From a virus: DNA of 29,003 nucleotides. The notes beneath the pieces were generated by a model that saw nothing but the letters and a program-made list of their open reading frames with translations, was not told the DNA's origin and ran no database searches. Position 1 is the first letter of the stretch. Every line of letters begins with the position of its first letter. Location of the stretch: positions 1 to 29,003 of the IMG/VR virus record IMGVR_UViG_3300017739_000073, one strand, 5' to 3'. A program made the translations under genes and the position numbers. Below, one piece after another: positions 868-27,786 of this stretch.

Positions 868-1332
868 ATGAATGCAGTGATCAAATTTCCCCAAAATGTT
901 GGGTGTTTTAAACTATCTGAAAAGGCAAAACTTCCATACCAAGCAACAGCAGGAGCGGCTTGTTATGATCTTTATGCTTGCGTCGATAAACCCTTAAAAT
1001 TGAATCCAAAAGAGCGGGTACTTGTTCCCACGGGACTAATTATGGATATCCCCGAGGGTTATTCCGTTCGCATCCACACACGTTCGTCATGGGCTGCGAT
1101 AAAAGGTATTGGGTTGTCTGTCTCTGAGGGCATTATTGACTCTGATTACGTTAAAGAGGTTTTTGTGCCGATGGTTAATAATACCGATAAAATTTTTCAT
1201 ATCAACGACGGTGATAGAGTGGCACAGTGTGAACTCTTGAAAAATCTCTCAACTGACTTTACCGAGGTCAATGAAGCCCCACAGGAAAAAACTAGTCGCA
1301 AAGGTGGGTTTGGAAGCACGGGTATTGGATGA
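868..1332 (+). CDS. dut: dUTP diphosphatase (trimeric dUTPase)
   Basis: This enzyme hydrolyses dUTP to dUMP and PPi, keeping uracil out of DNA and supplying dUMP for thymidylate synthesis (ThyX is encoded at 12348). All five motifs of the trimeric family are present in order in 154 aa: AGAACYDLYA, HTRSSWA, GIIDSDYVKEVFVPM, GDRVAQC and the C-terminal RKGGFGSTG that closes over the active site. The length is normal. TAAGGAT lies 10-16 nt upstream of the ATG. Its stop overlaps the start of the glycosyltransferase by 4 nt, so it heads the long plus-strand operon. Confidence 0.95.
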   Translation: MNAVIKFPQNVGCFKLSEKAKLPYQATAGAACYDLYACVDKPLKLNPKERVLVPTGLIMDIPEGYSVRIHTRSSWAAIKGIGLSVSEGIIDSDYVKEVFVPMVNNTDKIFHINDGDRVAQCELLKNLSTDFTEVNEAPQEKTSRKGGFGSTGIG

Positions 1333-2132
1333 AAAAAATCGTAGGTAGGTTGAAAAGAGGTGTTTATCCAGATCATTTTGGATTGGCAAACCAAATGTTT
1401 CAAATTTCTATGGCGTATGCGTATGCCAAGAGAAACAATTTGAAGCCAGTTTTTCCTGAACTAAGACAAACCAATGTTTGCGGTCCTTACCTTGAAACTG
1501 TTTTTAGAAATCTTGATACCTCTGGAATGATTGCCGATTTTGAAGGAAGGCATGTCAAACAAAACGAGACTGACTTTCAGTTGATGGACATCCCCGATGG
1601 TCTAGAGCAGTTTATGTTTGATGGATATTGGCAGTCTGAGCATTATTTTAAAGATTGTGCTAGTGAAATCAAAGAATTATTTTGTGCTGATCCACAAACT
1701 GAAAAAAGAATCAAAGAAAAATATGGAGAAGAGTTATCTAAACCCTGTTGCTCTATTCACATGCGGCGAGGGGACTATCTCAACTACAAGGATGTTTTTG
1801 TCAATTTAGTGGAAACTAATTACTACCAAGACGCAGTAAATGAGTCCAACGCTGAAACATTTTTTGTGATGAGTAATGACGTTGACTTTGCCACTGAGTG
1901 GTTCGCGTCGAACTTCCCAGAAAAAAATATGATTTTTCCAAACGATGATGAGGTATTTGAAATGTATCTCATGTCAATGTGCGATGAGGTTATCATGGCA
2001 AACAGTTCTTTTTCATGGTGGGGATCATATCTTGGCAAAGAGAAAAAAACATTTGCACCAAAAGAGTGGTTCATGCCAAACTCTATCGTAAACTATGAAA
2101 GCATTTATCGAGATGATTGGAGGGTTCTGTGA
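1329..2132 (+). CDS. Alpha-1,2-fucosyltransferase-like glycosyltransferase (GT11)
   Basis: The family transfers L-fucose, or in relatives L-colitose, from a GDP-sugar to a glycan. The protein is 267 aa with the GT11 signatures: an N-terminal 'LANQMFQISMAYAYAKRN' segment, the donor-binding H-x-R-R-G-D-Y (HMRRGDY, about residue 143) and the C-terminal 'ANSSFSWWGSYL'. It has no signal peptide or membrane segment, so it is probably cytosolic. It overlaps the dUTPase by 4 nt, and its stop overlaps the GTG start of the next gene. It is followed by two GDP-deoxysugar enzymes, so the three probably form one cassette acting on a phage or host glycan. The acceptor is unknown. Confidence 0.85.
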   Translation: MKKIVGRLKRGVYPDHFGLANQMFQISMAYAYAKRNNLKPVFPELRQTNVCGPYLETVFRNLDTSGMIADFEGRHVKQNETDFQLMDIPDGLEQFMFDGYWQSEHYFKDCASEIKELFCADPQTEKRIKEKYGEELSKPCCSIHMRRGDYLNYKDVFVNLVETNYYQDAVNESNAETFFVMSNDVDFATEWFASNFPEKNMIFPNDDEVFEMYLMSMCDEVIMANSSFSWWGSYLGKEKKTFAPKEWFMPNSIVNYESIYRDDWRVL

Positions 2133-3046
2133 GTATTCCAGAAGAAAGTATTTTTATCACCGGCGGTAATGGTTTGGTTGGTTCTTGTGTTAAAGGGAAG
2201 CACAGACCCAGATCATTAGAAGTTAACTTACTAAACTTTGATCAAACTCTTGAATACATGAGGGACAATAAGATTAAAAATGTTGTTCATTGTGCAGCAA
2301 GAGTTGGTGGTGTCCAAGAAAACATGGACAAGTTGGGTGAGTTTTTCTATGAAAACATGCAGATGACTCTAAACATTATCGAGGCATCTCGTCTGTGTGG
2401 TGTCGAGAAAATTGTTTGCCTTTTGTCAACTTGTATCTTCCCAGACAAGGCAACGTATCCACTGACAACAGATCAAATCCATATGGGTGAACCACATCAG
2501 TCAAACTATGGTTATGGCTACGCAAAACGTATGACAGAAATCAACGCAAGATCCTATCGAGATCAGTACGGGATGAAAATTGTAAACATTGTTCCGTGTA
2601 ATGTGTATGGAATCGGTGACAACTATAATCTTAAAAGTTCACATGTCATTCCCGGTCTGATTCACAAATGTCATATTGCAAAACAATATGAAGGGGATCT
2701 TGAAGTTTGGGGTGATGGACTCGCTCTGCGTGAGTTTATCTACAATAAAGACTTGGGTAAAATTATTGATTGGACTTTGGAAAACTACGAAGATGATGAG
2801 GCACTAATTGTTTCACCAGATAAGGAACACTCAATCGTGGAAGCAGTTAATTATATTACAAAAGCGTTTGACTTAAACGGAAGTATCGTGTACGATTCTA
2901 CTAAGCCGAGAGGTCAGCACAGAAAGCCATCAGACAACTCTAAGTTCAAAAGTCTTTTGCCAAATTTTCAGTTTACACAACTTGAGGATGGCATCAAAGA
3001 AACAGTTGACTGGTTTAGAAAAAATTATGGAGATGTCAGAAAATGA
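2129..3046 (+). CDS. GDP-L-fucose synthase / ColC-like epimerase-reductase
   Basis: This is a short-chain dehydrogenase of the GDP-4-keto-6-deoxymannose 3,5-epimerase-4-reductase family (Fcl/WcaG; the colitose enzyme ColC is a close relative). A Rossmann motif GGNGLVGS lies near residue 12 and CAARVGG near residue 55. Y129-x-x-x-K133 is the catalytic pair. C102 (in STCIFP) and H172 (in SSHVIP) match the Cys/His epimerisation pair of E. coli GDP-fucose synthase. I place the start at GTG 2129, which overlaps the previous TGA (GTGA) and follows GGAGG 2119-2123 with a 5-nt spacer; a TTG at 2117 would be 4 codons longer but would include the SD. Usual family length is about 310-320 aa; this is 305. 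Confidence 0.88.
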   Translation: MSIPEESIFITGGNGLVGSCVKGKHRPRSLEVNLLNFDQTLEYMRDNKIKNVVHCAARVGGVQENMDKLGEFFYENMQMTLNIIEASRLCGVEKIVCLLSTCIFPDKATYPLTTDQIHMGEPHQSNYGYGYAKRMTEINARSYRDQYGMKIVNIVPCNVYGIGDNYNLKSSHVIPGLIHKCHIAKQYEGDLEVWGDGLALREFIYNKDLGKIIDWTLENYEDDEALIVSPDKEHSIVEAVNYITKAFDLNGSIVYDSTKPRGQHRKPSDNSKFKSLLPNFQFTQLEDGIKETVDWFRKNYGDVRK

Positions 3047-4224
3047 AGTCTTGGAAACTAATGAACAATGCGATTACTCCTGCCCAACGACAACGTTTGT
3101 CGGACTTTGTTTTGTTGGCAGATCGCTTTTCTCAAGGTGACGAAGTTCGTAGATTCGAAGAGCAGTGGAGTGAGTGGCAAGGTTGTAAGTATTCCGTATT
3201 TTGTAATTCTGGTTCGTCCGCAAACTTTCTGATCGTACAGGCAATGAAAGAGTTACATAGCAATACGAATCATCTTTGGCTCGCACCTGCGACAACTTGG
3301 GCAACCACGGTATCTCCCATCATGATGGCAGGGCAGGAACTTCAATTGTGTGATGTGACGATTCCGAATATGAATCTGTGTCTTGATAGTTTCAAGGAGA
3401 TTTTGTTACAACACAAAAGATCTTTTGGAGCAAGACCTAAGTTTCTTTTTCTTGCACACCTTCTTGGCTTCAACTCTATGAGTGACCAACTTATTCATCT
3501 GTGTGATGAAAACAATATTACTATTCTTGAGGATTGCTGTGAATCGCATGGTGCGACTTTCAGCGGCAAAAAGATTGGCAACTTCGGACGGGCTTCATCA
3601 TTCTCCTTTTATTATGGTCATCACATGACCACGATTGAGGGTGGTATGGTTTGCACAGATGACGAAGAGGTATATGAAAAACTTCTTTTGATTCGCTCAC
3701 ATGGCTTGCTGAGAGAGTTGCCACCATACTTGCAGACAAAGTATAAAGATCAAAAGGTTGATGAAAACTTTACCTTCATGGTTCCGGGTTACAACATGAG
3801 ATCAACTGATTTTAATGCTGTGCTTGGTCAAATGCAGTTGAGACAACTGGATAAACATAACGACATTCGCAGAAAGAACTTTGAAGTGTTTGCAAAAGGT
3901 CTGAGCAAAGATAAATTTTACGCAGACTTTAAACTTGAAGGTAACAGTAGTTTCTGCTTTCCCGTAATCACAAAGACAACGCGAGAAGACACACTCTCAC
4001 TTAGAAAATATCTTGAGTCTCAGGGTGTCGAAACGCGACCAATCATCGCAGGTAATCTGTACGAACATCCATTCATGGATCGTGTGAATCAGTATCGACA
4101 TGATAAAAATGCAAAACTGATTCATCAAAATGGATTTTACATCGGCAATAATCATGCAGTTGATATTGGAAATGTAACTTGGCTTATCGAAAGACTAAAC
4201 GCATGGGAACGGGGTGAAAAGTGA
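3043..4224 (+). CDS. PLP-dependent sugar 3-dehydrase, ColD/E1-like (His in place of the PLP lysine)
   Basis: A 393-aa DegT/DnrJ/EryC1-fold protein. The lysine that normally carries PLP is replaced by histidine: the segment reads S-F-Y-Y-G-H193-H194-M-T-T-I-E-G-G. This His-His is diagnostic of the 3-dehydrases ColD (GDP-4-keto-6-deoxymannose 3-dehydrase) and E1/RfbH, which remove the C3 hydroxyl instead of transaminating. Length fits ColD, and I see no C-terminal Cys cluster like the iron-sulphur site of E1. PLP-pocket landmarks SGSSAN, EDCCESHGA and VPGYNMRSTDFNAVLG are present. It overlaps the previous gene by 4 nt and the next by 4 nt. Next to a GDP-fucose-synthase-like gene it suggests a 3,6-dideoxyhexose (colitose-type) pathway. 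Confidence 0.85.
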   Translation: MKSWKLMNNAITPAQRQRLSDFVLLADRFSQGDEVRRFEEQWSEWQGCKYSVFCNSGSSANFLIVQAMKELHSNTNHLWLAPATTWATTVSPIMMAGQELQLCDVTIPNMNLCLDSFKEILLQHKRSFGARPKFLFLAHLLGFNSMSDQLIHLCDENNITILEDCCESHGATFSGKKIGNFGRASSFSFYYGHHMTTIEGGMVCTDDEEVYEKLLLIRSHGLLRELPPYLQTKYKDQKVDENFTFMVPGYNMRSTDFNAVLGQMQLRQLDKHNDIRRKNFEVFAKGLSKDKFYADFKLEGNSSFCFPVITKTTREDTLSLRKYLESQGVETRPIIAGNLYEHPFMDRVNQYRHDKNAKLIHQNGFYIGNNHAVDIGNVTWLIERLNAWERGEK

Positions 4225-20037: not shown

Positions 20038-20559
20038 TCATGCGAAGTTTACATTAATTTTGTATCCAGTGCCGCTGCTCTCAAACGTAAACACAACGTC
20101 AGTTTTTGGAAGTGATGCTTCGAACGGAACACCCTCTACCTCGGGCAAAGCCTGATCAGGCTCTTGATCAATTGCATCTGATACATTTTTATTATCGCCA
20201 AGTGGCTGATCACCAAAAGTGACTTCGGTGGTATACTCGGTTCCGTTCATGGCAGCGTTTCTCATCGCGGCAGGATCAATGTGAAAAGAAAGTCCGGTGG
20301 CGTTGAATTTTGCTCTCGCTCTGGTAACAGCATCGACAACATCTTCATACACTCCTCCGAGAGCGGATTGAAGTCCTTTAGACATAAGACCCATGTTTGA
20401 AGATGTTGGATATGGTTTATTTGCACCGCCCTTTTGAACAGAGCCAAGATCTGTTCCGGCGATATCCCCAACATTAGTCCTATCACCACCTGCATAGGCA
20501 GTTGGTCCGTCGTAATATTCTTCGGTAAGTTTAGAGCGAATGTCCTTAAAAGATTTCAT
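20038..20559 (-). CDS. Hypothetical protein with capsid-targeting-like N-terminus, 173 aa
   Basis: The start M-K-S-F-K-D-I-R-S-K-L-T-E-E resembles the shared N-terminus of the cargo-type genes at 23.6-27.8 kb, with an L-T-E13 cleavage-type site three residues later than the usual position 10. The rest is low-complexity and acidic (GPTAYAGGDRTNVGDIAG; DQEPDQALPEVEGVPF) and ends in alternating residues (VVFTFESSGTGYKINVNFA) that suggest a beta strand. There is no catalytic motif or transmembrane segment. It lies directly downstream of the 104-aa gene. Possible internal or structural virion protein (inference). Confidence 0.6.
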   Translation of the reverse strand: MKSFKDIRSKLTEEYYDGPTAYAGGDRTNVGDIAGTDLGSVQKGGANKPYPTSSNMGLMSKGLQSALGGVYEDVVDAVTRARAKFNATGLSFHIDPAAMRNAAMNGTEYTTEVTFGDQPLGDNKNVSDAIDQEPDQALPEVEGVPFEASLPKTDVVFTFESSGTGYKINVNFA

Positions 20560-20874
20560 TTACTTCCCCAATCTATTCATCACTGCCTTTTCAAAAGCAG
20601 CGACATTTTGACTTGTTACATCCCCTTCGACACCCATTTTGTCAAAGTGAGTTTTTACAATTTTATTCTTATCCTCAATAGTTCTAGCATTTGTCAGGAT
20701 ATCTTCAGCCGTCGCGTCAACGATATCTTGAGTAACTTCTTTTGGCATAGCATTGTGATTTCCACGGTTCATTACTTGATTTACCGCATCAATCGCATTT
20801 TTAAGACCATCTGATTCACCACCACTAAAAGGACCGGCAGAGTCAAATCCACTACTAACATTATCTGATTCCAT
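20560..20874 (-). CDS. Hypothetical protein, 104 aa
   Basis: ATG 20874 follows GGAG with a 7-nt spacer and overlaps the stop of the fusion gene by one base. The N-terminus is Ser/Gly/Asp rich and probably disordered. A helical part follows (LKNAIDAVNQVMNRG, VTQDIVDATAEDILTNARTIEDKNKIVKTHFDKMG, AAFEKAVMNRLGK). No membrane segment, Cys or known motif is present. It is transcribed with the fusion gene and the 173-aa gene; role unknown. Confidence 0.6.
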   Translation of the reverse strand: MESDNVSSGFDSAGPFSGGESDGLKNAIDAVNQVMNRGNHNAMPKEVTQDIVDATAEDILTNARTIEDKNKIVKTHFDKMGVEGDVTSQNVAAFEKAVMNRLGK

Positions 20875-23135
20875 TATGAATCTCCTTTAAAGTATGTATC
20901 TGCAATTTCATTTACCTGTCCGGGTGTCATTCTTTTTCTTTTTCTTGTAAGAGCAGTCGTTCCCTCCAGATCATCATCTGAATATTCCTCTTCTCTTGCC
21001 TTTTTCTTAGCCATGTTTGTCGCAGTGCCGAAAATGACATCCTCATAATCATCTCCATATCGATTTTTAAAACCTTTTGCTCGTTTCTTCAAATCTTTAG
21101 CAAATTTGTCTCTAAGTTTTATTTCTTGTTTTGTCAAAACCTCTTCTTTAAGTTTTGTGGTCTTAATAAACTTCTTGCCCGGATCAACAACAATATGGAA
21201 TTCTTTCATGAAAGGGACACCAATCAAAACAGGAGTTCCCTTTTTGCTTCTATCATCTAAGGTGAATCTTCGTTTAACATACTTTTTATCAAGAAATTCT
21301 ATATCCAATTCAATCACATAGCGTTTTTCTTCATGTGCGCCGATGCCGCCCTCAAGAATAGTAAACTCATCGACAATTTTGTTCTTGAATTTTTTACCTT
21401 TGTGTGTCCATGAGATAGTTTTTCCATTTATTTTCATGGTATCCGCATGAATTGAGTTGACCGCCGTGTTACCAGTATCAAACTTTGCCTCGATGGGACC
21501 GATGCCCTCTACTGATATGACTTCTTTCCTACCAACAATTGTTGGGGGGTAATCCCAGTTATTTTTGTCGGTAATATATTTAACAAAAGTTTGCATCACG
21601 TTTCCAGATGAAACCTTTTCAATGCCCTCTGATCCCGGTGATGCGTTTACTTCAATAACATAAGGCTTTCTTCTACCTTTAGTAACAGCGATATCTACAC
21701 CGACAAAGTATCCACCCACCGCCTTTGCAGTTCTGAGGGCAAGTTTTTTGATCTCATCACTAATCTTTACTTGTTTGATAGATCCACCGAGAGAAAAGTT
21801 TGTTCTAAAATCGCCTTTGACTTTACTTCTCTCCATGACAGCGACAATTTGACCATCAAGAACAACGATGCGAAGATCCCCGTTAATATTAAGATACTCT
21901 TGGATAATCAACTCTTGTGAGTCATCAACTTTAAGAATAGCATCGAGTGTTGATTTTAGTGATTGTTCACTCTCAAGAATAAACACTCCCTTTCCCTTAG
22001 AGCCTGTGATTGTTTTTACAACCACTGGATAATTACCACCAACTTGCTTATGGGCATCCATTACATTTTCAGGGTCGGTAATCAACGCCGTTCTTGGTGT
22101 AGGAAGACCAGCCTCAACAAGTGTGAGTGCGGAGCGATACTTATCGTTGCAAATTTCGATTGAGTCCCTAGAGTTAATCACAAAGAATCCACTCTTTTCG
22201 AACGCCGAAACCATATCGAGAGTCGCGTTATTTTCTTGAGCAGCACCACGAACAATTACAACAGTGTCATGCCGATTTGCCACAAATTCTTTACCATCTT
22301 TATTGATAACTGTACGAGTCCCATCTGCATTTTTCACAGATCGGGCAAAGGGGACGAACGCGACGAAACACTCGACTCCGATTTTTTGTGCCTCTTCTTT
22401 GATTCGCTTCGCAGTTCTCATTAAGTTGTCTTTATTTTCTTCGCTATATCCAGAAAAAACTAGTAACTTAATTTTATCTCTAGAGACTTCTGCCTCCTCG
22501 GTGATAGTCCCACCGACAACGCCCATTCCTTTACGAACATCGTCAAAAAGTTTACGAGCCTGTCTATCTGATCCCGTGGTTGGGACACCTTGACGAAACG
22601 ACTTGAAGTCACCCTCGGCTGCTGCTGCTCTCATCTTTGATGCCGACATGCCAACAATACCCTCTGCATCAGGATCGCGTCTACCGGCACTAACGACCTC
22701 AAATGTGTTTAGATCTAAAGATTTATCTGGATCAGGATGATTGATATATGGTCTAACGGTTCTTTCAAACTCATCGGTTCTATCGCCGCCAACAACGACA
22801 GTAACATCCGTATATCCTTCATCAGCAAGATATCCCAAAGCCTCAAAAATCGTGCGAATCGAGGTGTTATACATAATATTAGCCTTCTTGAAAAAGGTTC
22901 GCATGTGCTTTGTTTTTGTTCTTGAATCTAGAGGATTCTTTTTCTTATCTTGGGAGTGGCTGGCAAAGATAAAATTGTCAGCGGATCTTTTTCTTGCTTC
23001 CTGTAAAACTTTGTTTACCAGTAGTTCATGACCAGATGTGGGTGGGTTGAAACGTCCAAACGTAAGAACCGCTTTCTTATTTCGACGCTCTTCCACGATG
23101 ACATTACGCCTCACTCCATTGTAGTGTGGTTTCAT
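20874..23135 (-). CDS. Three-domain fusion: nucleotidyltransferase + RimK-like ATP-grasp ligase + RimB-like aspartic protease
   Basis: Residues 21-200 form a cytidylyltransferase-type (HIGH-superfamily) domain: TFGRFNPPTSGH (25-36), VVVGGDRTDEF and GMSASKMR (162-169). Residues about 222-530 form an ATP-grasp ligase like RimK: VIVRGAAQENN, CNDKY, VVVKTITGSKGKGV with K374, QEYLNINGDLRIVV and VIEVNASPGSEG (493-503). Residues about 535-660 resemble the retropepsin-like 'ATP-dependent zinc protease'/RimB family (PF05618): EAKFDTGNTAVNS with D553-T-G, and VLIGVPFM (636-643). The C-terminus (665-753) is charged. RimK adds glutamates to ribosomal protein S6, and RimB modulates this in Pseudomonas. 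The N-terminus (I-V-E15) resembles a capsid-targeting sequence. Its SD is exceptionally complete, and a 25-nt inverted repeat flanks its start. Confidence 0.85.
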   Translation of the reverse strand: MKPHYNGVRRNVIVEERRNKKAVLTFGRFNPPTSGHELLVNKVLQEARKRSADNFIFASHSQDKKKNPLDSRTKTKHMRTFFKKANIMYNTSIRTIFEALGYLADEGYTDVTVVVGGDRTDEFERTVRPYINHPDPDKSLDLNTFEVVSAGRRDPDAEGIVGMSASKMRAAAAEGDFKSFRQGVPTTGSDRQARKLFDDVRKGMGVVGGTITEEAEVSRDKIKLLVFSGYSEENKDNLMRTAKRIKEEAQKIGVECFVAFVPFARSVKNADGTRTVINKDGKEFVANRHDTVVIVRGAAQENNATLDMVSAFEKSGFFVINSRDSIEICNDKYRSALTLVEAGLPTPRTALITDPENVMDAHKQVGGNYPVVVKTITGSKGKGVFILESEQSLKSTLDAILKVDDSQELIIQEYLNINGDLRIVVLDGQIVAVMERSKVKGDFRTNFSLGGSIKQVKISDEIKKLALRTAKAVGGYFVGVDIAVTKGRRKPYVIEVNASPGSEGIEKVSSGNVMQTFVKYITDKNNWDYPPTIVGRKEVISVEGIGPIEAKFDTGNTAVNSIHADTMKINGKTISWTHKGKKFKNKIVDEFTILEGGIGAHEEKRYVIELDIEFLDKKYVKRRFTLDDRSKKGTPVLIGVPFMKEFHIVVDPGKKFIKTTKLKEEVLTKQEIKLRDKFAKDLKKRAKGFKNRYGDDYEDVIFGTATNMAKKKAREEEYSDDDLEGTTALTRKRKRMTPGQVNEIADTYFKGDS
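23021..23045. repeat. Inverted repeat, arm 1 (inside the fusion gene)
   Basis: The 25 bases are the exact reverse complement of 23176-23200. This arm codes for residues about 31-38 of the fusion protein (around PTSGHELL). The 130-nt interval between the arms holds the start codon and SD. Confidence 0.95.
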
Positions 23136-23140
23136 AAGTC

Positions 23141-23151
23141 GATCACCTCCT
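23141..23151 (-). promoter_or_regulatory. Near-maximal Shine-Dalgarno for the fusion gene
   Basis: Read on the minus strand, AGGAGGTGATC matches the bacterial 16S rRNA 3' end (GATCACCTCCT) over 11 bases, 5 nt before the ATG at 23135. It is far stronger than other SDs in the window and sits in the loop of the 25-bp inverted repeat. Confidence 0.8.
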
Positions 23152-23175
23152 CGGTCTGGTTATTGTGTATGGTCA

Positions 23176-23200
23176 CCACCCACATCTGGTCATGAACTAC
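23176..23200. repeat. Inverted repeat, arm 2 (intergenic)
   Basis: It lies between the stop of the 40-residue gene (23204) and the fusion gene start (23135). It is the perfect reverse complement of 23021-23045. In the minus-strand mRNA the two arms would form a 25-bp stem enclosing SD, start codon and the first 30 or so codons. Confidence 0.95.
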
Positions 23201-23203
23201 AGT

Positions 23204-23326
23204 TTACTTATTCCACGGGAGATAAGTTCTGAGCCATTCAAACATGGGTTTGCCGATTAAAGCACCTAGTGTAAAACTAATAAGTGTGTGAGCGATAAAT
23301 CCGTAAGTGGTTGTTACAAAATCCAT
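23204..23326 (-). CDS. 40-residue membrane peptide
   Basis: This gene is short but well supported: ATG 23326 has AAGGAG with a 6-nt spacer, a CTAAATA box lies 36 nt upstream, and TAA is at 23206-23204. The product has one hydrophobic segment (VTTTYGFIAHTLISFTLGALIG) followed by KPMFEWLRTYLPWNK, a basic/aromatic end. It looks like a single-helix inner-membrane peptide. It is the first gene of the second minus-strand operon, upstream of the fusion gene and, much further on, the lysis cassette. It could be holin- or antiholin-like; no family recognised. Confidence 0.65.
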   Translation of the reverse strand: MDFVTTTYGFIAHTLISFTLGALIGKPMFEWLRTYLPWNK

Positions 23327-23361
23327 TTGATTCTCCTTGTGCTTTGGTCGGCGTGACCTCT

Positions 23362-23598
23362 TTATTTAGTAGATGTTTTCTTCTTAGATGTGACTTTTTT
23401 ACGAGCCTTTTTTACTGGTTGTGGTTTCGGTGCTGGCTTAGTTTCCTCAACGAACCAACAAAGCCCTTTCCAGACAAGTTTAAATGCATTTCCTACTCTC
23501 ACGATAAATCTCCCTAAAAATCCGCAGATAAGAAGAAGAGCATCTCTCAAATCATCTTGAAACTTTTCTTCAAACCTTCTACCATCACCTTTTTTCAT
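23362..23598 (-). CDS. Small amphipathic, Lys-rich protein, 78 aa
   Basis: ATG 23598 overlaps the stop of the previous gene (ATGA) and has AAGGA upstream; a TTG at 23607 would add three codons. The N-terminal half has a hydrophobic/amphipathic helix (ALLLICGFLGRFIVRVGNAF, KLVWKGLCWFVEE). A Pro-Lys linker (KPAPKPQPVKK) leads to a very basic end (ARKKVTSKKKTSTK). The basic tail could bind DNA or membrane phosphates. It closes the cargo operon, and its stop codon lies in the CTAAATA box of the next operon. Confidence 0.6.
   Translation of the reverse strand: MKKGDGRRFEEKFQDDLRDALLLICGFLGRFIVRVGNAFKLVWKGLCWFVEETKPAPKPQPVKKARKKVTSKKKTSTK
23363..23369 (-). promoter_or_regulatory. CTAAATA late-promoter-like box (minus strand)
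   Basis: Read 23369 to 23363 it is CTAAATA, overlapping the stop of the Lys-rich gene and leaving a 36-nt leader before the ATG at 23326. It probably drives the operon from the 40-residue gene through the lysis cassette. Confidence 0.6.
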
Positions 23599-24791
23599 TT
23601 TGTCCAATCCTTTGCTACGTTAAAGTTTGCTCGGGAAAACTCCATACGATCTACGAGTTTTACGGCTTTTCCCGACCTATCAATTGCAACAAACCCTTCG
23701 GGGTCGGTCACTTTATATCCTGTGCTTGTTTTGATAAACGACGGCATGGTATTCAAAGCCTGTAATTTTTTTAATATAAGCATTTTAGCCCTTGCCAATT
23801 CATAGTGAGCAGTAAACAGTCCGTTTAGATCACGACTCATACCCCTCAACTCTTTTAACAAAATTTCCTTTTCTTCTTCGACACGCTCTTTCGCTTTTTC
23901 TGTTTTGAGTTTTTTAATCTTCAAATCAAATCGTGTCATAATAAATCCAGCAAAACTTTTAGTTGTCCCCCTATCAACACCTTCACGAACATTCGCATTG
24001 AGGTAAATTTTTATCAAATCTTTCAAGTCACTACTTACAATTTGTCTCAAAGTTTTTTTAGACTTTGCGATATTCTTTTCAGTAATATCAATTAATTTTT
24101 TCATCCTTGCTTCTTCGGTTGATGTAAGAGTCGCCCTACCAGAAACATCTTTGTAAGACGCATCTTGATACCAAACTTTTCTAGACGCTTTCAAACCAGA
24201 AACATCTGCACCGAAAGATGCTTTAAGATTTTCTATTGTGTCACCGTTGTAAGTGGTGTGAAAAACGATCCCCATTTTTGAAGTGTTTATTTTACTCGCC
24301 AGATCACTTCCAGCAGGAACAGCGTATGTAATCGTGTTCGGAGTAAATGACACCATCGACTCACCATCAATGGTCTGTGCGGATAGATCGTCTTTCGTGT
24401 AAAGCATATCTCCCTGCAAAACACCAGTAATGCCCAAATCCTTTAGGTTTGCAAGTGCGACTTTTAACTTATCTGCCAACCCTCCACTGTGGTTGGCATC
24501 AATATCAGCATTTGTGTAATTGATCTTCGGTATTTTGTTAAACAAAGATTTTGTCGCCACGAAAAACTTTCCATTCTCTGGATTGATTCCTGTGAACAAG
24601 GCTGGTGCGCCGTCCCACTTTACTGTAACGTTCACTGGGCTTTTTGCATTTCCTTTGAGCATTTCCGCCAAAGATTTGATAAATGCAATAGCCTCTTTGA
24701 CACCCACCTCGCCACGATTGAACATCTCATCTTCAAGATGCTCAAGGTGCAAGTTTTTTTGCTCTGTGAGGAAGGTGGTAAAAGTTCTCAT
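23595..24791 (-). CDS. KxDG nucleotidyltransferase-like protein (DUF6267-like) with capsid-targeting-like N-terminus
   Basis: A 398-aa protein of a family common in T4-like marine phages. V-K58-W-D60-G61-A-P-A has the K-x-D-G form of the AMP-accepting motif I of DNA/RNA ligases. It is followed by KFFVATKSLFNK (75-86), VLQGDML (124-130, motif III-like), ITYAVPAGSD and MGIVFHTTYNG (173-183, motif IV-like). A ligase or capping-type nucleotidyl transfer is therefore possible; activity in this family is not established to my knowledge. The second half is helical with charged stretches (KIKKLKTEKAKERVEEEKE). The N-terminus M-R-T-F-T-T-F-L-T-E10 fits the shared capsid-targeting-like peptide. It overlaps both neighbours by 4 nt. 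Confidence 0.75.
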   Translation of the reverse strand: MRTFTTFLTEQKNLHLEHLEDEMFNRGEVGVKEAIAFIKSLAEMLKGNAKSPVNVTVKWDGAPALFTGINPENGKFFVATKSLFNKIPKINYTNADIDANHSGGLADKLKVALANLKDLGITGVLQGDMLYTKDDLSAQTIDGESMVSFTPNTITYAVPAGSDLASKINTSKMGIVFHTTYNGDTIENLKASFGADVSGLKASRKVWYQDASYKDVSGRATLTSTEEARMKKLIDITEKNIAKSKKTLRQIVSSDLKDLIKIYLNANVREGVDRGTTKSFAGFIMTRFDLKIKKLKTEKAKERVEEEKEILLKELRGMSRDLNGLFTAHYELARAKMLILKKLQALNTMPSFIKTSTGYKVTDPEGFVAIDRSGKAVKLVDRMEFSRANFNVAKDWTK

Positions 24792-25897
24792 ACAGATGCC
24801 GCCAAGTCGTCAAGGTATTTTCCATTTTCGACATAGAATCTAACTCGTGGTCTATACGCAGTTTTTTGTCTATTGATCGGGTCCGAATCATAACGGAATC
24901 GCAAAGAAAAAAGTTCAGTTCCGTTAGCAAAGAACCCAATCTTTGGATTTGATCCACCCATCGGTCGCCACTCAACGTTACCATTTTTTGCCGCGTCAAC
25001 AACCAATTCTGAAATTTTGTCAAAAGTCTTTTTATCAAATGAAACCGCCGTGCGAATCAGTTCGATATCATCCTCTGTGCCTTTATTAGCCTTCAACAAT
25101 CCACCAAGAATTTTCTTTGCGTTTGCTGCGTTAGCGACATATCTTTTGTCAAACTTTCGAATCACATCAGTAAACAAACTTTGCACGGCTCCGAACATGA
25201 GAGTTTTGTCGCCAGCGATCTTGGGGTCATTTCTTGATTCATAAGGTGCGGAAAGACCACCGGATGCATCACGAACTTTTCGCAACCCAGAAAAACTTTT
25301 GATGTCCATACCAAAAGATGCAAAAGCATCAATCAAGTTTTTGCTTGCGTCAACACCAGCAAACTGTCCGGCTTGTTTTGTTCCGGCATACTTCACAGAG
25401 AAACCTACTTTTCGCTGCACTCTGTCGTTGACGAAAACATCAACATCTGATTTCGTAGCCATCTGACCTGTGGTTCCCCCACAACGAATCTCAACTTCAT
25501 CACGTTTTCCGTTTGTAATCACATCATTGGAAAGTGCGGTTAGTGATCGGTTTTTATTTACGGCTGCGATTGCATCTTTAATCATTTTTTGAACAATCGG
25601 ACCAGAGCGAAGTCTTGCATCATTCAAGGCAGACATGACTTCGGGCGGAAGACCCCCACCATCAAACTCCACAACATCGATCTCATCGTCACCCTCCTCA
25701 ACTTCCCACATGCGATTAAGTGCAAAATATTGTTTCATTACATCCTCAACAGATGCAGGTGTGAGAGATTGTGGCGAACCATCGTTGAAGCGATCAGTAA
25801 ACCGAGCAACCATCGCGGCTGCAAGGACAAACTCATATGCGTGTCCTTGATTTACTGGGAATGCCTCTTCTATGATAAATCGTTTAAAGGTTTTCAT
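24788..25897 (-). CDS. Putative PD-(D/E)XK-type nuclease with capsid-targeting-like N-terminus
   Basis: The 369 aa start M-K-T-F-K-R-F-I-I-E10. A conserved-looking helix follows (NQGHAYEFVLAAAMVARF, E22), then a basic/acidic strand set D-E-V-E-I-R-C-G-G, K-S-D151-V-D153-V-F-V and K-V-G-F-S-V-K169-Y. The spacing and the D...S-x-K form resemble the cores of phage and restriction PD-(D/E)XK nucleases, where S-[LV]-K may replace E-x-K. The C-terminal half has a strand-rich end (IGFFANGTELFSLRFRYDSD). The nuclease call is inference from motif shape. If packaged, it could act on host DNA early or on packaged DNA ends. It overlaps neighbours by 4 nt on each side. Confidence 0.5.
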   Translation of the reverse strand: MKTFKRFIIEEAFPVNQGHAYEFVLAAAMVARFTDRFNDGSPQSLTPASVEDVMKQYFALNRMWEVEEGDDEIDVVEFDGGGLPPEVMSALNDARLRSGPIVQKMIKDAIAAVNKNRSLTALSNDVITNGKRDEVEIRCGGTTGQMATKSDVDVFVNDRVQRKVGFSVKYAGTKQAGQFAGVDASKNLIDAFASFGMDIKSFSGLRKVRDASGGLSAPYESRNDPKIAGDKTLMFGAVQSLFTDVIRKFDKRYVANAANAKKILGGLLKANKGTEDDIELIRTAVSFDKKTFDKISELVVDAAKNGNVEWRPMGGSNPKIGFFANGTELFSLRFRYDSDPINRQKTAYRPRVRFYVENGKYLDDLAASV

Positions 25898-26124
25898 GCT
25901 GCGACCGTATCTACTACTTCGTAGTCCTTTCGTTCAAGTTTTCTGATTTCACTTCTGTTTTCTGCAAATTTGAAGTCACCTTCTTTTGTGTGTTGCATTA
26001 TTGTAATCATTTTACCAAGTTTCCGTGCGAGTTCCATTGCTTTTTTTGAAGCGTCTTTGAATTGACCCATGATTTCCTGTAACTCCTGATCATTTTCTAC
26101 GATATATTGTTTGAAAGTTTTCAT
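25894..26124 (-). CDS. Small helical protein with capsid-targeting-like N-terminus, 76 aa
   Basis: The start M-K-T-F-K-Q-Y-I-V-E10-N is almost the same as that of the downstream 369-aa protein, yet the rest is unrelated. After the proposed cut the protein is a charged helix (DQELQEIMGQFKDASKKAMELARKLGKM) with a mixed tail ending in VVDTVAA. It is about the size of small T4 internal proteins. It overlaps both flanking genes by 4 nt. Function unknown; a packaged internal protein is the simplest reading. Confidence 0.65.
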   Translation of the reverse strand: MKTFKQYIVENDQELQEIMGQFKDASKKAMELARKLGKMITIMQHTKEGDFKFAENRSEIRKLERKDYEVVDTVAA

Positions 26125-26357
26125 TTCTTACCTAACTTTCCTTTTTTCTTTTCACCAGATGATCTTTTGATCATGCCCCTCGCGGAAAGACGAGCGGCAA
26201 GTGTGGCTCCAACAACTTTCATCGCCTTTCCATAGTCAACATCATCTAAAGATCCATACTTGTCAATAAGTTTTTTCTTTGCCTTATCGAGATGGTCTTT
26301 CATTTCTTTGCCTTTGAATTTGAGGTCAGATTCAACCAGTCTTTTATCAAGTTTCAT
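26121..26357 (-). CDS. Small basic protein with capsid-targeting-like N-terminus, 78 aa
   Basis: ATG 26357 follows GGAGGG with a 6-nt spacer and shares a base with the previous TGA; a TTG one codon earlier is less likely. The start M-K-L-D-K-R-L-V-E9-S-D is a diverged form of the shared peptide. The remainder is helical and basic (KGKEMKDHLDKAKKKLIDKYG; LAARLSARGMIKRSSGEKKKGKLGKK), suitable for binding DNA inside a head. No catalytic motif is seen. Confidence 0.6.
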   Translation of the reverse strand: MKLDKRLVESDLKFKGKEMKDHLDKAKKKLIDKYGSLDDVDYGKAMKVVGATLAARLSARGMIKRSSGEKKKGKLGKK

Positions 26358-27058
26358 CAATATCCCTCCATTCCATACACAGGCGCAGGCAAGTCTTTGT
26401 ATCGAAGTTGTTTTACTTCTTCCTCTTTTGGTGGCTCTTGTGTGATATATCTATCAATCAATTGCTTAGAAAAGTCTCTGCCAGCCTCAACATCCTCTGG
26501 AAAGTGAACACCAAGACTGATACGAGACTGTGCGTTGTCCTCTGCAACTTTATCGAGTGCTTCCTTTTTATCGGGGTGGCGACGAGAGAGAACATCTGCG
26601 ATGACATAACCGACTGCTGCATGATTGCTTGGGTAACTGGGGGTGTCAACACGAACATGTGGGATTAGAACTTTACCATAAAATTTTGCAGTTTCGCGTG
26701 GTCTTAGTCTATTGAAGTGATATTTTTTTCTTAAGGTCAAGGTGTCAATTTGTCTTTTAAGTTCACCAATAAGTGCAACATCAAAATCACCTCGACCCAC
26801 AATATCTTTCATCATATCCATGAAATCTTCGTCGAGTTTAACTTCATATTTGAGTCTCTCTGGTGACATGATCATCGAGTCCATGACCTCTTGAAGTTCC
26901 ATCTGAGTTTCTTTAGATGAAAGTTTTGCAGGAGTTGGTAGAGACAGACCCTCAACGTCTTTGAAATATGGCGTTGGTCGTTTCATATGAATGCGGTGTT
27001 TTTGTGTTGCACTTTCATGCAATACTTTTGCATTTTTAAAATCTTTAAACTTCATCAT
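26357..27058 (-). CDS. PAP2-superfamily acid phosphatase with capsid-targeting-like N-terminus
   Basis: All three PAP2/haloperoxidase phosphatase motifs are present in 233 aa: K112-x6-R119-P120 (KYHFNRLRP), P143-S-N-H146 (SYPSNHA) and S178-R179-x5-H185-x3-D189 (SRISLGVHFPEDVEAG). The two His and the Arg residues needed for phosphoryl transfer are intact, so phosphatase activity is likely; the substrate is unknown. Unlike lipid phosphatases of this group it has no obvious membrane helices. The first residues (M-M-K-F-K-D-F...V-L-H-E15) are a longer form of the shared N-terminal peptide. AAGGAG precedes the double ATG at 27058; its end overlaps the next gene. Confidence 0.85.
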   Translation of the reverse strand: MMKFKDFKNAKVLHESATQKHRIHMKRPTPYFKDVEGLSLPTPAKLSSKETQMELQEVMDSMIMSPERLKYEVKLDEDFMDMMKDIVGRGDFDVALIGELKRQIDTLTLRKKYHFNRLRPRETAKFYGKVLIPHVRVDTPSYPSNHAAVGYVIADVLSRRHPDKKEALDKVAEDNAQSRISLGVHFPEDVEAGRDFSKQLIDRYITQEPPKEEEVKQLRYKDLPAPVYGMEGY

Positions 27059-27774
27059 TTCAAAAACTCCTTTAACAATTGTACCTGAACATCAGCCCTT
27101 TCCGCAAGCGGAAACCCACCTCCCGCTGGCGTTTCTGTGGTCATCGATGGTTTAACACCGATAGTTGCAAGGTAATCTCCTAACATACCCTGTCGATCTC
27201 TTTCGATTTTACCATTGATAGCGTGATTGGGTGGAAATGGACTGTGTAAAAGTGAATATTTGTCTCCGATGATGTTCACCATACGGTCGCCCAGACCCCC
27301 TACGTCGCTCCAGACGAACATATACCCCTTGTCCCTGTTCGGATCTTCGTGGAGGTCTACAAAGCCATCACGGGCGAGTGGAAGCCATCTGTCAAGGATA
27401 TCAAGAAGCCTCTTCATTTCTCGGGAAGGATTGTTTGGAATATTGTTATTTGGGTTTATATCCATGTCATCATTGTGTTTTCCAGATCGGTAAGATTCTT
27501 TGGAAACGATGGGAAGATATGTTACATTTACTTCTGTCGGTTTATTTTCTTTAACATATTTCAACAAACCAACAGGTCCGGCTGGTTCATCGCCTTGAAG
27601 ATTTGAAGCAACAAGTTTATTAGGTTTGTCACCAAACTTTAAAGGGATAAAGAAAGTGTGTCCATTTTCATCAAATCTTTTATGTGTTGAAGAAACAGCA
27701 TCTTCGAACTCTCGAAAATACTGTTCGACAGAATCATCAGATTCTTCAACTAGAAATTTACGAAAAGACTTCAT
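27055..27774 (-). CDS. M14-like zinc carboxypeptidase-type protein with capsid-targeting-like N-terminus
   Basis: The 239 aa start M-K-S-F-R-K-F-L-V-E10. A fold typical of M14 peptidases and succinylglutamate desuccinylase-like enzymes can be traced. N-L-Q60-G-D-E63-P-A-G stands where H-x-x-E is usual. R97 and DINPNN (105-110) match the R...D-x-N-R region, VDLH142 the third zinc ligand, and T-T-E214-T-P the catalytic Glu. The first zinc His is Gln (codon CAA), so the protein may bind metal differently or be inactive. It is the first gene after a CTAAATA box and overlaps the PAP2 gene by 4 nt. A peptidase delivered with DNA could act on the envelope or on cytoplasmic peptides (inference). Confidence 0.6.
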   Translation of the reverse strand: MKSFRKFLVEESDDSVEQYFREFEDAVSSTHKRFDENGHTFFIPLKFGDKPNKLVASNLQGDEPAGPVGLLKYVKENKPTEVNVTYLPIVSKESYRSGKHNDDMDINPNNNIPNNPSREMKRLLDILDRWLPLARDGFVDLHEDPNRDKGYMFVWSDVGGLGDRMVNIIGDKYSLLHSPFPPNHAINGKIERDRQGMLGDYLATIGVKPSMTTETPAGGGFPLAERADVQVQLLKEFLK

Positions 27775-27779
27775 GCCTT

Positions 27780-27786
27780 TATTTAG
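27780..27786 (-). promoter_or_regulatory. CTAAATA late-promoter-like box (minus strand)
   Basis: Read 27786 to 27780 it is CTAAATA, overlapping the stop codon of the PEP-CTERM-like gene. It lies only 5 nt before the ATG at 27774, so a transcript from it would be almost leaderless; this copy is less certain than the other three. Confidence 0.4.

Follow-up and report, generated by a model that had tools for sequence, protein, structure and literature searches.

Eight minus-strand proteins encoded on a 29-kb piece of T4-like marine phage DNA (IMG/VR record IMGVR_UViG_3300017739_000073, positions 1 to 29,003; this whole stretch is called the window below) begin with variants of one short peptide. 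We consider it very probable (about 0.86) that the N-terminus common to them acts as a capsid targeting sequence (CTS) of the T4 kind, serving to load unrelated enzymes into the head, to be cut there and to let the enzymes be injected. Judged from the sequence, the peptide, called the tag here, has the consensus M-K-[ST]-F-x-x-[FY]-[LI]-x-E, together with longer or eroded forms. Residues 4 and 7 of the tag would draw enzymes of unrelated families into the prohead core during assembly, and a gp21-type prohead protease would cleave after the glutamate by way of residues 8 and 10. The mature enzyme would then stay enclosed in the head with the DNA until it is ejected into the host cell on infection. 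Enclosure and ejection are modelled on Ip1-Ip3 of T4, injected restriction inhibitors whose leader is their sole common part (PMC12373910). We infer packaging of the window's own proteins, and by analogy with T4 the tag would be cleaved and the cargo injected. The original prediction, drawn from the letters of the window, had already proposed capsid targeting; this reading is now supported by the match to T4 residues, the many families carrying the tag, the cleavage site of the capsid protein gp23 and the virions of related phages.

The N-terminal tag in the window and in marine relatives

The tagged genes comprise six adjoining minus-strand genes, g30 to g35 (23595-27774), plus g27 (20038-20559) and g29 (20874-23135), and all eight N-termini named in the original prediction were found in the sequence exactly as given. 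All eight, and none of the 30 other genes of the window, combine an M-K/R start with an [LI]-x-E whose glutamate falls at residues 8-16 (Fisher p=2e-8, an optimistic value because the motif was picked after inspection), and the [LI]-x-E end falls at residues 9-15 in the whole set. For an unbiased test, an 8-column profile was built solely from N-termini of DUF6267 proteins, the family of g30, from other contigs. The held-out tags of g31 (MKTFKRFIIE, 25868-25897, minus strand), g32 (MKTFKQYIVE, 26095-26124, minus strand) and g35 (MKSFRKFLVE, 27745-27774, minus strand) scored 14.2, 17.1 and 14.5, respectively, and every window gene other than these three and g30 (MRTFTTFLTE, 24762-24791, minus strand) scored at most 6.6. 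The strict matches are thus g30, g31, g32 and g35, half of the set, and all four have F4 and F/Y7 at the T4 targeting positions. The g35 tag is kept in the orthologue on contig L002 as MRNFKSYLFE, and orthologues of g31 retain [LI]-x-E immediately upstream of the domain.

A total of 80 relatives of g30 were collected from IMG/VR, most of which start with M-x-x-F-x-x-[FY]-[LI]-x-E and continue, after a variable insert, with a conserved K-N-x-H-[LM]-E-H. The glutamate at residue 10 is invariant in an alignment of 31 sequences, and residues 1-14 of g30 were modelled by AlphaFold at low confidence, as in a disordered tail. In the trained profile, residue 4 is F or Y in 42 of 48 sequences and residue 7 is Y or F in 45 of 48. 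Applied to the 1116 candidate starts of T4, the profile ranked IPIII, IPII and gp61.1 as the top three; in T4 itself, IPII and IPIII alike start with MKTYQEFIAE, which bears out the T4 likeness first noticed in the window. On the IMG/VR contigs, same-strand neighbours within three genes of DUF6267 scored at least 12 in 40 of 342 cases, compared with one of 160 opposite-strand open reading frames and a fraction of 0.0002 of shuffled N-termini. After the tag was removed, the collected proteins fell into 40 clusters, about 30 of which are unrelated tagged marine families, and g30, g31, g32 and g35 each fell into a separate cluster. The tagged cargo of the relatives includes adenylate kinase, a zeta-toxin-like P-loop kinase, nucleotidyltransferases and a HAD protein resembling polynucleotide kinase-phosphatase. 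Codons at tag positions 4, 7, 8 and 10 vary synonymously (TTT/TTC/TAT/TAC, TTA/CTA/CTT/ATT and GAA/GAG), and selection therefore acts on the peptide, which rules out DNA-level conservation round the start codon.

The remaining four tags are diverged: g27 has F4 but I7, and g29, g33 and g34 deviate at positions 4 and 7. The long form in g27, MKSFKDIRSKLTE (20521-20559, minus strand), is conserved in contigs L002, L003, L004 and L007 as M-K-[STA]-F-K-x-[IL]-[RK]-x-x-[LIV]-[TNS]-E, with orthologue N-termini MKSFKDIKNYITE, MKTFKEIRQNVSE, MKTFKELRSQVNE and MKAFKQIRKTLNE. It is comparable to the longer propeptide of T4 IPI, which has 95 residues in the T4 genome and 76 in its mature form, and hence a propeptide of 19 residues. 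In g29 the tag is MKPHYNGVRRNVIVE (23091-23135, minus strand), where the orthologues retain [LI]-x-E-E-R, and stand-alone relatives of its domains are themselves tagged, namely NMNAT in cyanophages and RimK in Melnitz (MTQKFSQFITE, 19.9). The g34 tag is MMKFKDFKNAKVLHE (27014-27058, minus strand), and its PAP2 homologues in L010 and L015 begin with MKSFK[TS]YISL[EQ]E. The short tag of g33, MKLDKRLVE (26331-26357, minus strand), begins at an ATG and is an uncertain case.

Among the T4 matches, gp61.1 (L088:18966-19130, 54 residues, MKTFKEFIKE) scored 14.7, alongside IPII and IPIII, and may from its sequence be an unrecognised capsid-targeted protein; its body also matches the C-terminal end of a PHROG family of longer proteins. 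Two profile hits were set aside as false positives, gp1 of S-CREM2, which has no E at the site, and an internal start in HTVC008M. A further match in Melnitz (135759-136067) is probably also false.

Match to T4 processing and to published virions

The N-terminal ten residues of T4 IPIII are enough for packaging, and genetic mapping assigns control of targeting to residues 4 and 7 and of processing by gp21 to residues 8 and 10; gp21 cleaves after [L/I]-x-E, and the T4 internal-protein propeptides span 10-19 residues (PMC9026906). The conserved columns of the marine tag, 4, 7, 8 and 10, are these same targeting and processing residues. The last four residues of the tag also align with the maturation site of gp23 in the relatives, which, set against FLTE|A (E65) of T4, reads FLGE|I in HTVC008M, FLSE|A in Melnitz, ILTE|T in S-SM1 and LLTE|A in S-CREM2. 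The window is too short a fragment to hold gp21 or the capsid site. Contig G003, which is window-like in carrying homologues of g25, g26, g29 and g34, encodes both gp21 (E=2e-40) and a capsid protein with YLKE|A, and gp21 is present on five of the eight longer tagged contigs, G003 included. The original prediction had suggested seeking the prohead protease gene outside the window; the protease and its cut site thus both exist in phages of this kind.

Published virion proteomes of related cyanophages list tagged enzymes, as the capsid-targeting proposal had anticipated. The S-CREM2 virion contains 52 proteins (PMC10665884). The best tag in the S-CREM2 genome belongs to the NMNAT-like cytidylyltransferase gp154 (MKNFSSFLTE, 19.4), followed by the kinase gp14 (MKRFDAFLTE, 12.9) and the S-adenosylmethionine (SAM) hydrolase gp6 (MKDFDSFLEE, 11.0); together with the 78-residue gp13 (MKDLHSFLTE, 9.5), these are the only annotated starts scoring at least 9, and all four were detected in the virion (p=0.003). 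The fourth non-lytic virion enzyme, gp12, carries a shifted form of the tag, LRFASFMAEA. The cytidylyltransferase T4-GC190 alone tops the 1777 starts of S-SM1, and it is named among the virion proteins of that phage (PMC3037559). The NMNAT of S-SCSM1 (MKSFLQFLKE, 17.5) and the cytidylyltransferase of S-SZBM1 (MRFRQFIIE, 17.0) are likewise tagged and virion-detected, and the virion cytidylyltransferases of S-SM1, S-SZBM1, S-SCSM1 and S-CREM2 score 12.6-19.4. The virion list of S-SZBM1 omits the untagged DUF6267 protein of that phage and includes the adjoining tagged cytidylyltransferase. In S-CRM01 the virion-reported kinase begins with MISFDQFLSE (18.7), and the cytidylyltransferase scores just 4.8. 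The RimK homologue of YerA41, annotated as a 'structural protein', was given little weight as virion support: the YerA41 paper places a 'ribosomal protein modification protein' among the particle-associated proteins, but the preparation also contained replication and transcription enzymes.

Two further features of these virion enzymes were observed. In several of them (kinases, NMNAT-like and gp12-like proteins) the tag is followed by a second module of about 40 residues with the consensus A-x-x-L-[GN]-L-x-x-x-G-[FYH]-G-x-[YW]-x-D-x-x-G (L092, L097, L103, L113 and L129), which also occurs inside very large untagged proteins. S-CREM2 gp12 (L097:7704-10313) was deposited as 'CRISPR-associated endonuclease Cas9'; it has no Pfam match at E<=0.01, and the Cas9 name looks unsupported.

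Cargo and genomic context

The enzyme identities proposed from the window were partly firm. The g30 protein (23595-24791, minus strand) is a DUF6267 member (PF19782, 7e-112) with ligase motif I, KxDG, in an invariant K58-W-D-G-A-P across 31 sequences, and by this motif it is a covalent nucleotidyltransferase, probably of the RNA-ligase-like kind. Nearly all of its listed structural neighbours in VIA-align are RNA or DNA ligases (best Z 8.8, root-mean-square deviation 3.7, 183 residues aligned), the Foldseek E values are non-significant at 0.2 or above, and a sequence search of the PDB gave no match. The g34 protein (26357-27058, minus strand) is a PAP2-superfamily phosphatase (PF01569, E=1.8e-7; 31.4 bits, over the gathering score of 27.2). 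Of the calls of the original prediction, PAP2 holds and the ligase-like fold is probable. Its PD-(D/E)XK-like nuclease (g31) and M14-like peptidase (g35) calls are plausible but have weak support. In g31 (369 residues, 24788-25897, minus strand) the core D...SxK...Q is invariant (D153, S167, K169 and Q175), with the expected D and K in place and a serine at the (D/E) position; the model has a predicted local distance difference test score of 31-45 at the active-site region, too poor for a fold search, and from its sequence a PD-(D/E)XK-like nuclease is possible. The g35 protein (239 residues, 27055-27774, minus strand) may be M14/aminoacylase-like by its match to an N-acetylornithine deacetylase model (NF052223, E=6e-12), which at 45 bits lies under the curated cut-off of 400, and it had no Pfam match. 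A tblastn search of annotated phages found no relatives of g31 or g34, and the viral-contig scan found none of g34.

The g29 protein (20874-23135, minus strand) combines an NMNAT-like cytidylyltransferase, a RimK ATP-grasp domain and a Zn_protease (PF05618)-type domain; its relatives reach 1160 residues. The small g32 protein (76 residues, 25894-26124, minus strand) weakly matches an 'internal virion protein' PHROG (E=0.08), and no function was assigned to the basic 78-residue g33 (26121-26357, minus strand) or the 173-residue g27 (20038-20559, minus strand). In relatives, tagged HAD phosphatases and P-loop kinases adjoin DUF6267 (L061, L065, L052 and neighbours), which, taken from sequence, would make a kinase-phosphatase-ligase set for nucleic-acid repair.

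The long minus-strand operon spans 17.9 to 27.8 kb, and the plus strand carries genes for gp43, UvsX, gp41, gp61, ThyX and NrdJ (gene names were assigned from sequence); the polymerase shares about 51% identity with its counterparts in Synechococcus T4-like phages. Putative surface-type genes, also named from sequence, lie on the plus strand at 1329-4224, encoding a fucosyltransferase-like protein, a nicotinamide adenine dinucleotide (NAD)-dependent epimerase and an aminotransferase. The late-promoter motif HTAAATA occurs seven times in the window against 13 expected and is therefore uninformative on late expression; one copy (27780-27786, minus strand) stands immediately upstream of g35.

Alternative explanations and comparison with known systems

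Several points weigh against capsid targeting. Cleavage after the glutamate is deduced rather than read from neo-N-terminal peptides, gp21 was not found within the 29-kb fragment, and the proteomes come from related cyanophages, none of them this phage or its close kin, with the authors of the S-CREM2 and S-SCSM1 studies conceding possible co-purified contaminants. The tag is not necessary for packaging, most virion proteins being without it, nor is it perfectly specific, since an internal start of the HTVC008M carbamoyltransferase scores 16.9. The profile catches one CTS style only, as T4 Alt, gp67 and gp68 score low, and it rates the diverged tags weakly (g27 3.0, g33 0.8, g34 3.1 and g29 -7.7), so that half of the set rests on homologues.

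The tag might instead dock the enzymes to another phage complex, such as the replisome, the membrane or host machinery, with virion detection reflecting carry-over of abundant proteins. The genes adjoin gp43, uvsX, gp41 and gp61 in the window and in most relatives, and the proteome authors allow for carry-over; nevertheless, the tag consists of the T4 CTS residues of known packaging function, the DUF6267 glutamate is invariant and the end of the motif matches the gp23 maturation site. Carry-over also fits poorly with S-CREM2, whose virion list includes neither the primase gp162 nor UvsY gp148, both of them untagged replication proteins, and with the contrasting S-SZBM1 neighbours described above, and docking appears improbable. 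There is a very small chance that the proteins are minor parts of the prohead core or scaffold that are retained by assembly and are neither delivered to the next host nor act there as enzymes. T4 gp67, gp68 and gp22 are indeed core proteins that undergo cleavage and are for the most part lost from the head, and IPIII mutants are defective in head assembly (PMC9026906), but the cargo retains catalytic motifs (KWDGAP, PAP2 and RimK) and differs widely among relatives, as expected of delivered cargo, and T4 Ip1-Ip3 are injected inhibitors. Chance, composition or hitch-hiking of start-codon DNA has a negligible probability. Although MK[ST]F starts are not rare and both UvsX (MNNFLNNLVE) and the internal HTVC008M start resemble the tag, the rate of 0.0002 in shuffles against 0.12 in the operon, the window contrast and the top ranking of T4 internal proteins rule out chance and composition, and the synonymous codon variation speaks against shared DNA.

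Under capsid targeting, the use of the cargo can be described tentatively. Its most likely use, with somewhat less than an even chance in our estimation, is repair or counter-defence as soon as the phage enters; we infer examples in the RNA-ligase-like enzyme, NAD-type nucleotide synthesis and the SAM hydrolysis of S-CREM2. A broader and similarly speculative view is that marine T4-like phages employ a modular head tag to load a swappable enzyme kit, comprising an RNA ligase with kinase/phosphatase partners, NMNAT, RimK-type ligases, SAM hydrolase and protein kinases, which might undo host defences (RNA cutting, NAD loss and restriction) in the first minutes after injection. The tag offers an answer to the doubt whether non-structural enzymes in cyanophage virions are packaged or contaminants, and it supplies concrete peptides to seek in existing spectra. 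It provides a sequence rule for predicting what uncultivated marine phages, which rank with the most numerous viruses on Earth, carry in their heads, and it points to many uncharacterised families, conserved DUF6267 included, as injected effectors. If the rule is true, cargo could be read directly from genomes.

The closest known system is the T4 CTS with gp21, with which the marine tag shares a ten-residue N-terminal peptide, aromatics at 4 and 7, [LI]-x-E at 8-10, unrelated carriers, a cut-site motif common to gp23 and a gp21 homologue in the relatives. The T4 cargo consists of small restriction inhibitors, whereas here it consists of enzymes (RNA-ligase-like, NMNAT-like, PAP2 and RimK); the residues most often used are not the same (F4 and L8-T9 in the marine tag, Y4 and I8-A9 in IPIII), and the marine tagged genes are found within or close to the gp41-gp61 region. 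Homology to the first domain of g29 is shared by the virion cytidylyltransferases of S-SM1, S-SZBM1, S-SCSM1 and S-CREM2, but the virion enzymes of these cyanophages and S-CRM01 (NMNAT/cytidylyltransferase, kinase and SAM hydrolase) were reported as unexplained or as possible contaminants. In the available parts of the giant-phage accounts, substrates of phiKZ gp175 and SPN3US gp245 are likewise head proteins, several of them ejected, that are cleaved after a short motif ending in E; their propeptides, in contrast, are mostly 111-254 residues long, with two of 20-24, and those parts describe no ten-residue address common to unrelated enzymes. In T-even phages the mechanism is known and internal-protein genes have been located by this signal (PMC12373910). 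In the literature searched, 'capsid targeting sequence' and 'cyanophage' co-occur only through a cited title, and as far as that literature shows, what is new here is the use of such a signal by marine T4-like phages, the broad enzymatic cargo and the link between the tag and detection in virions.

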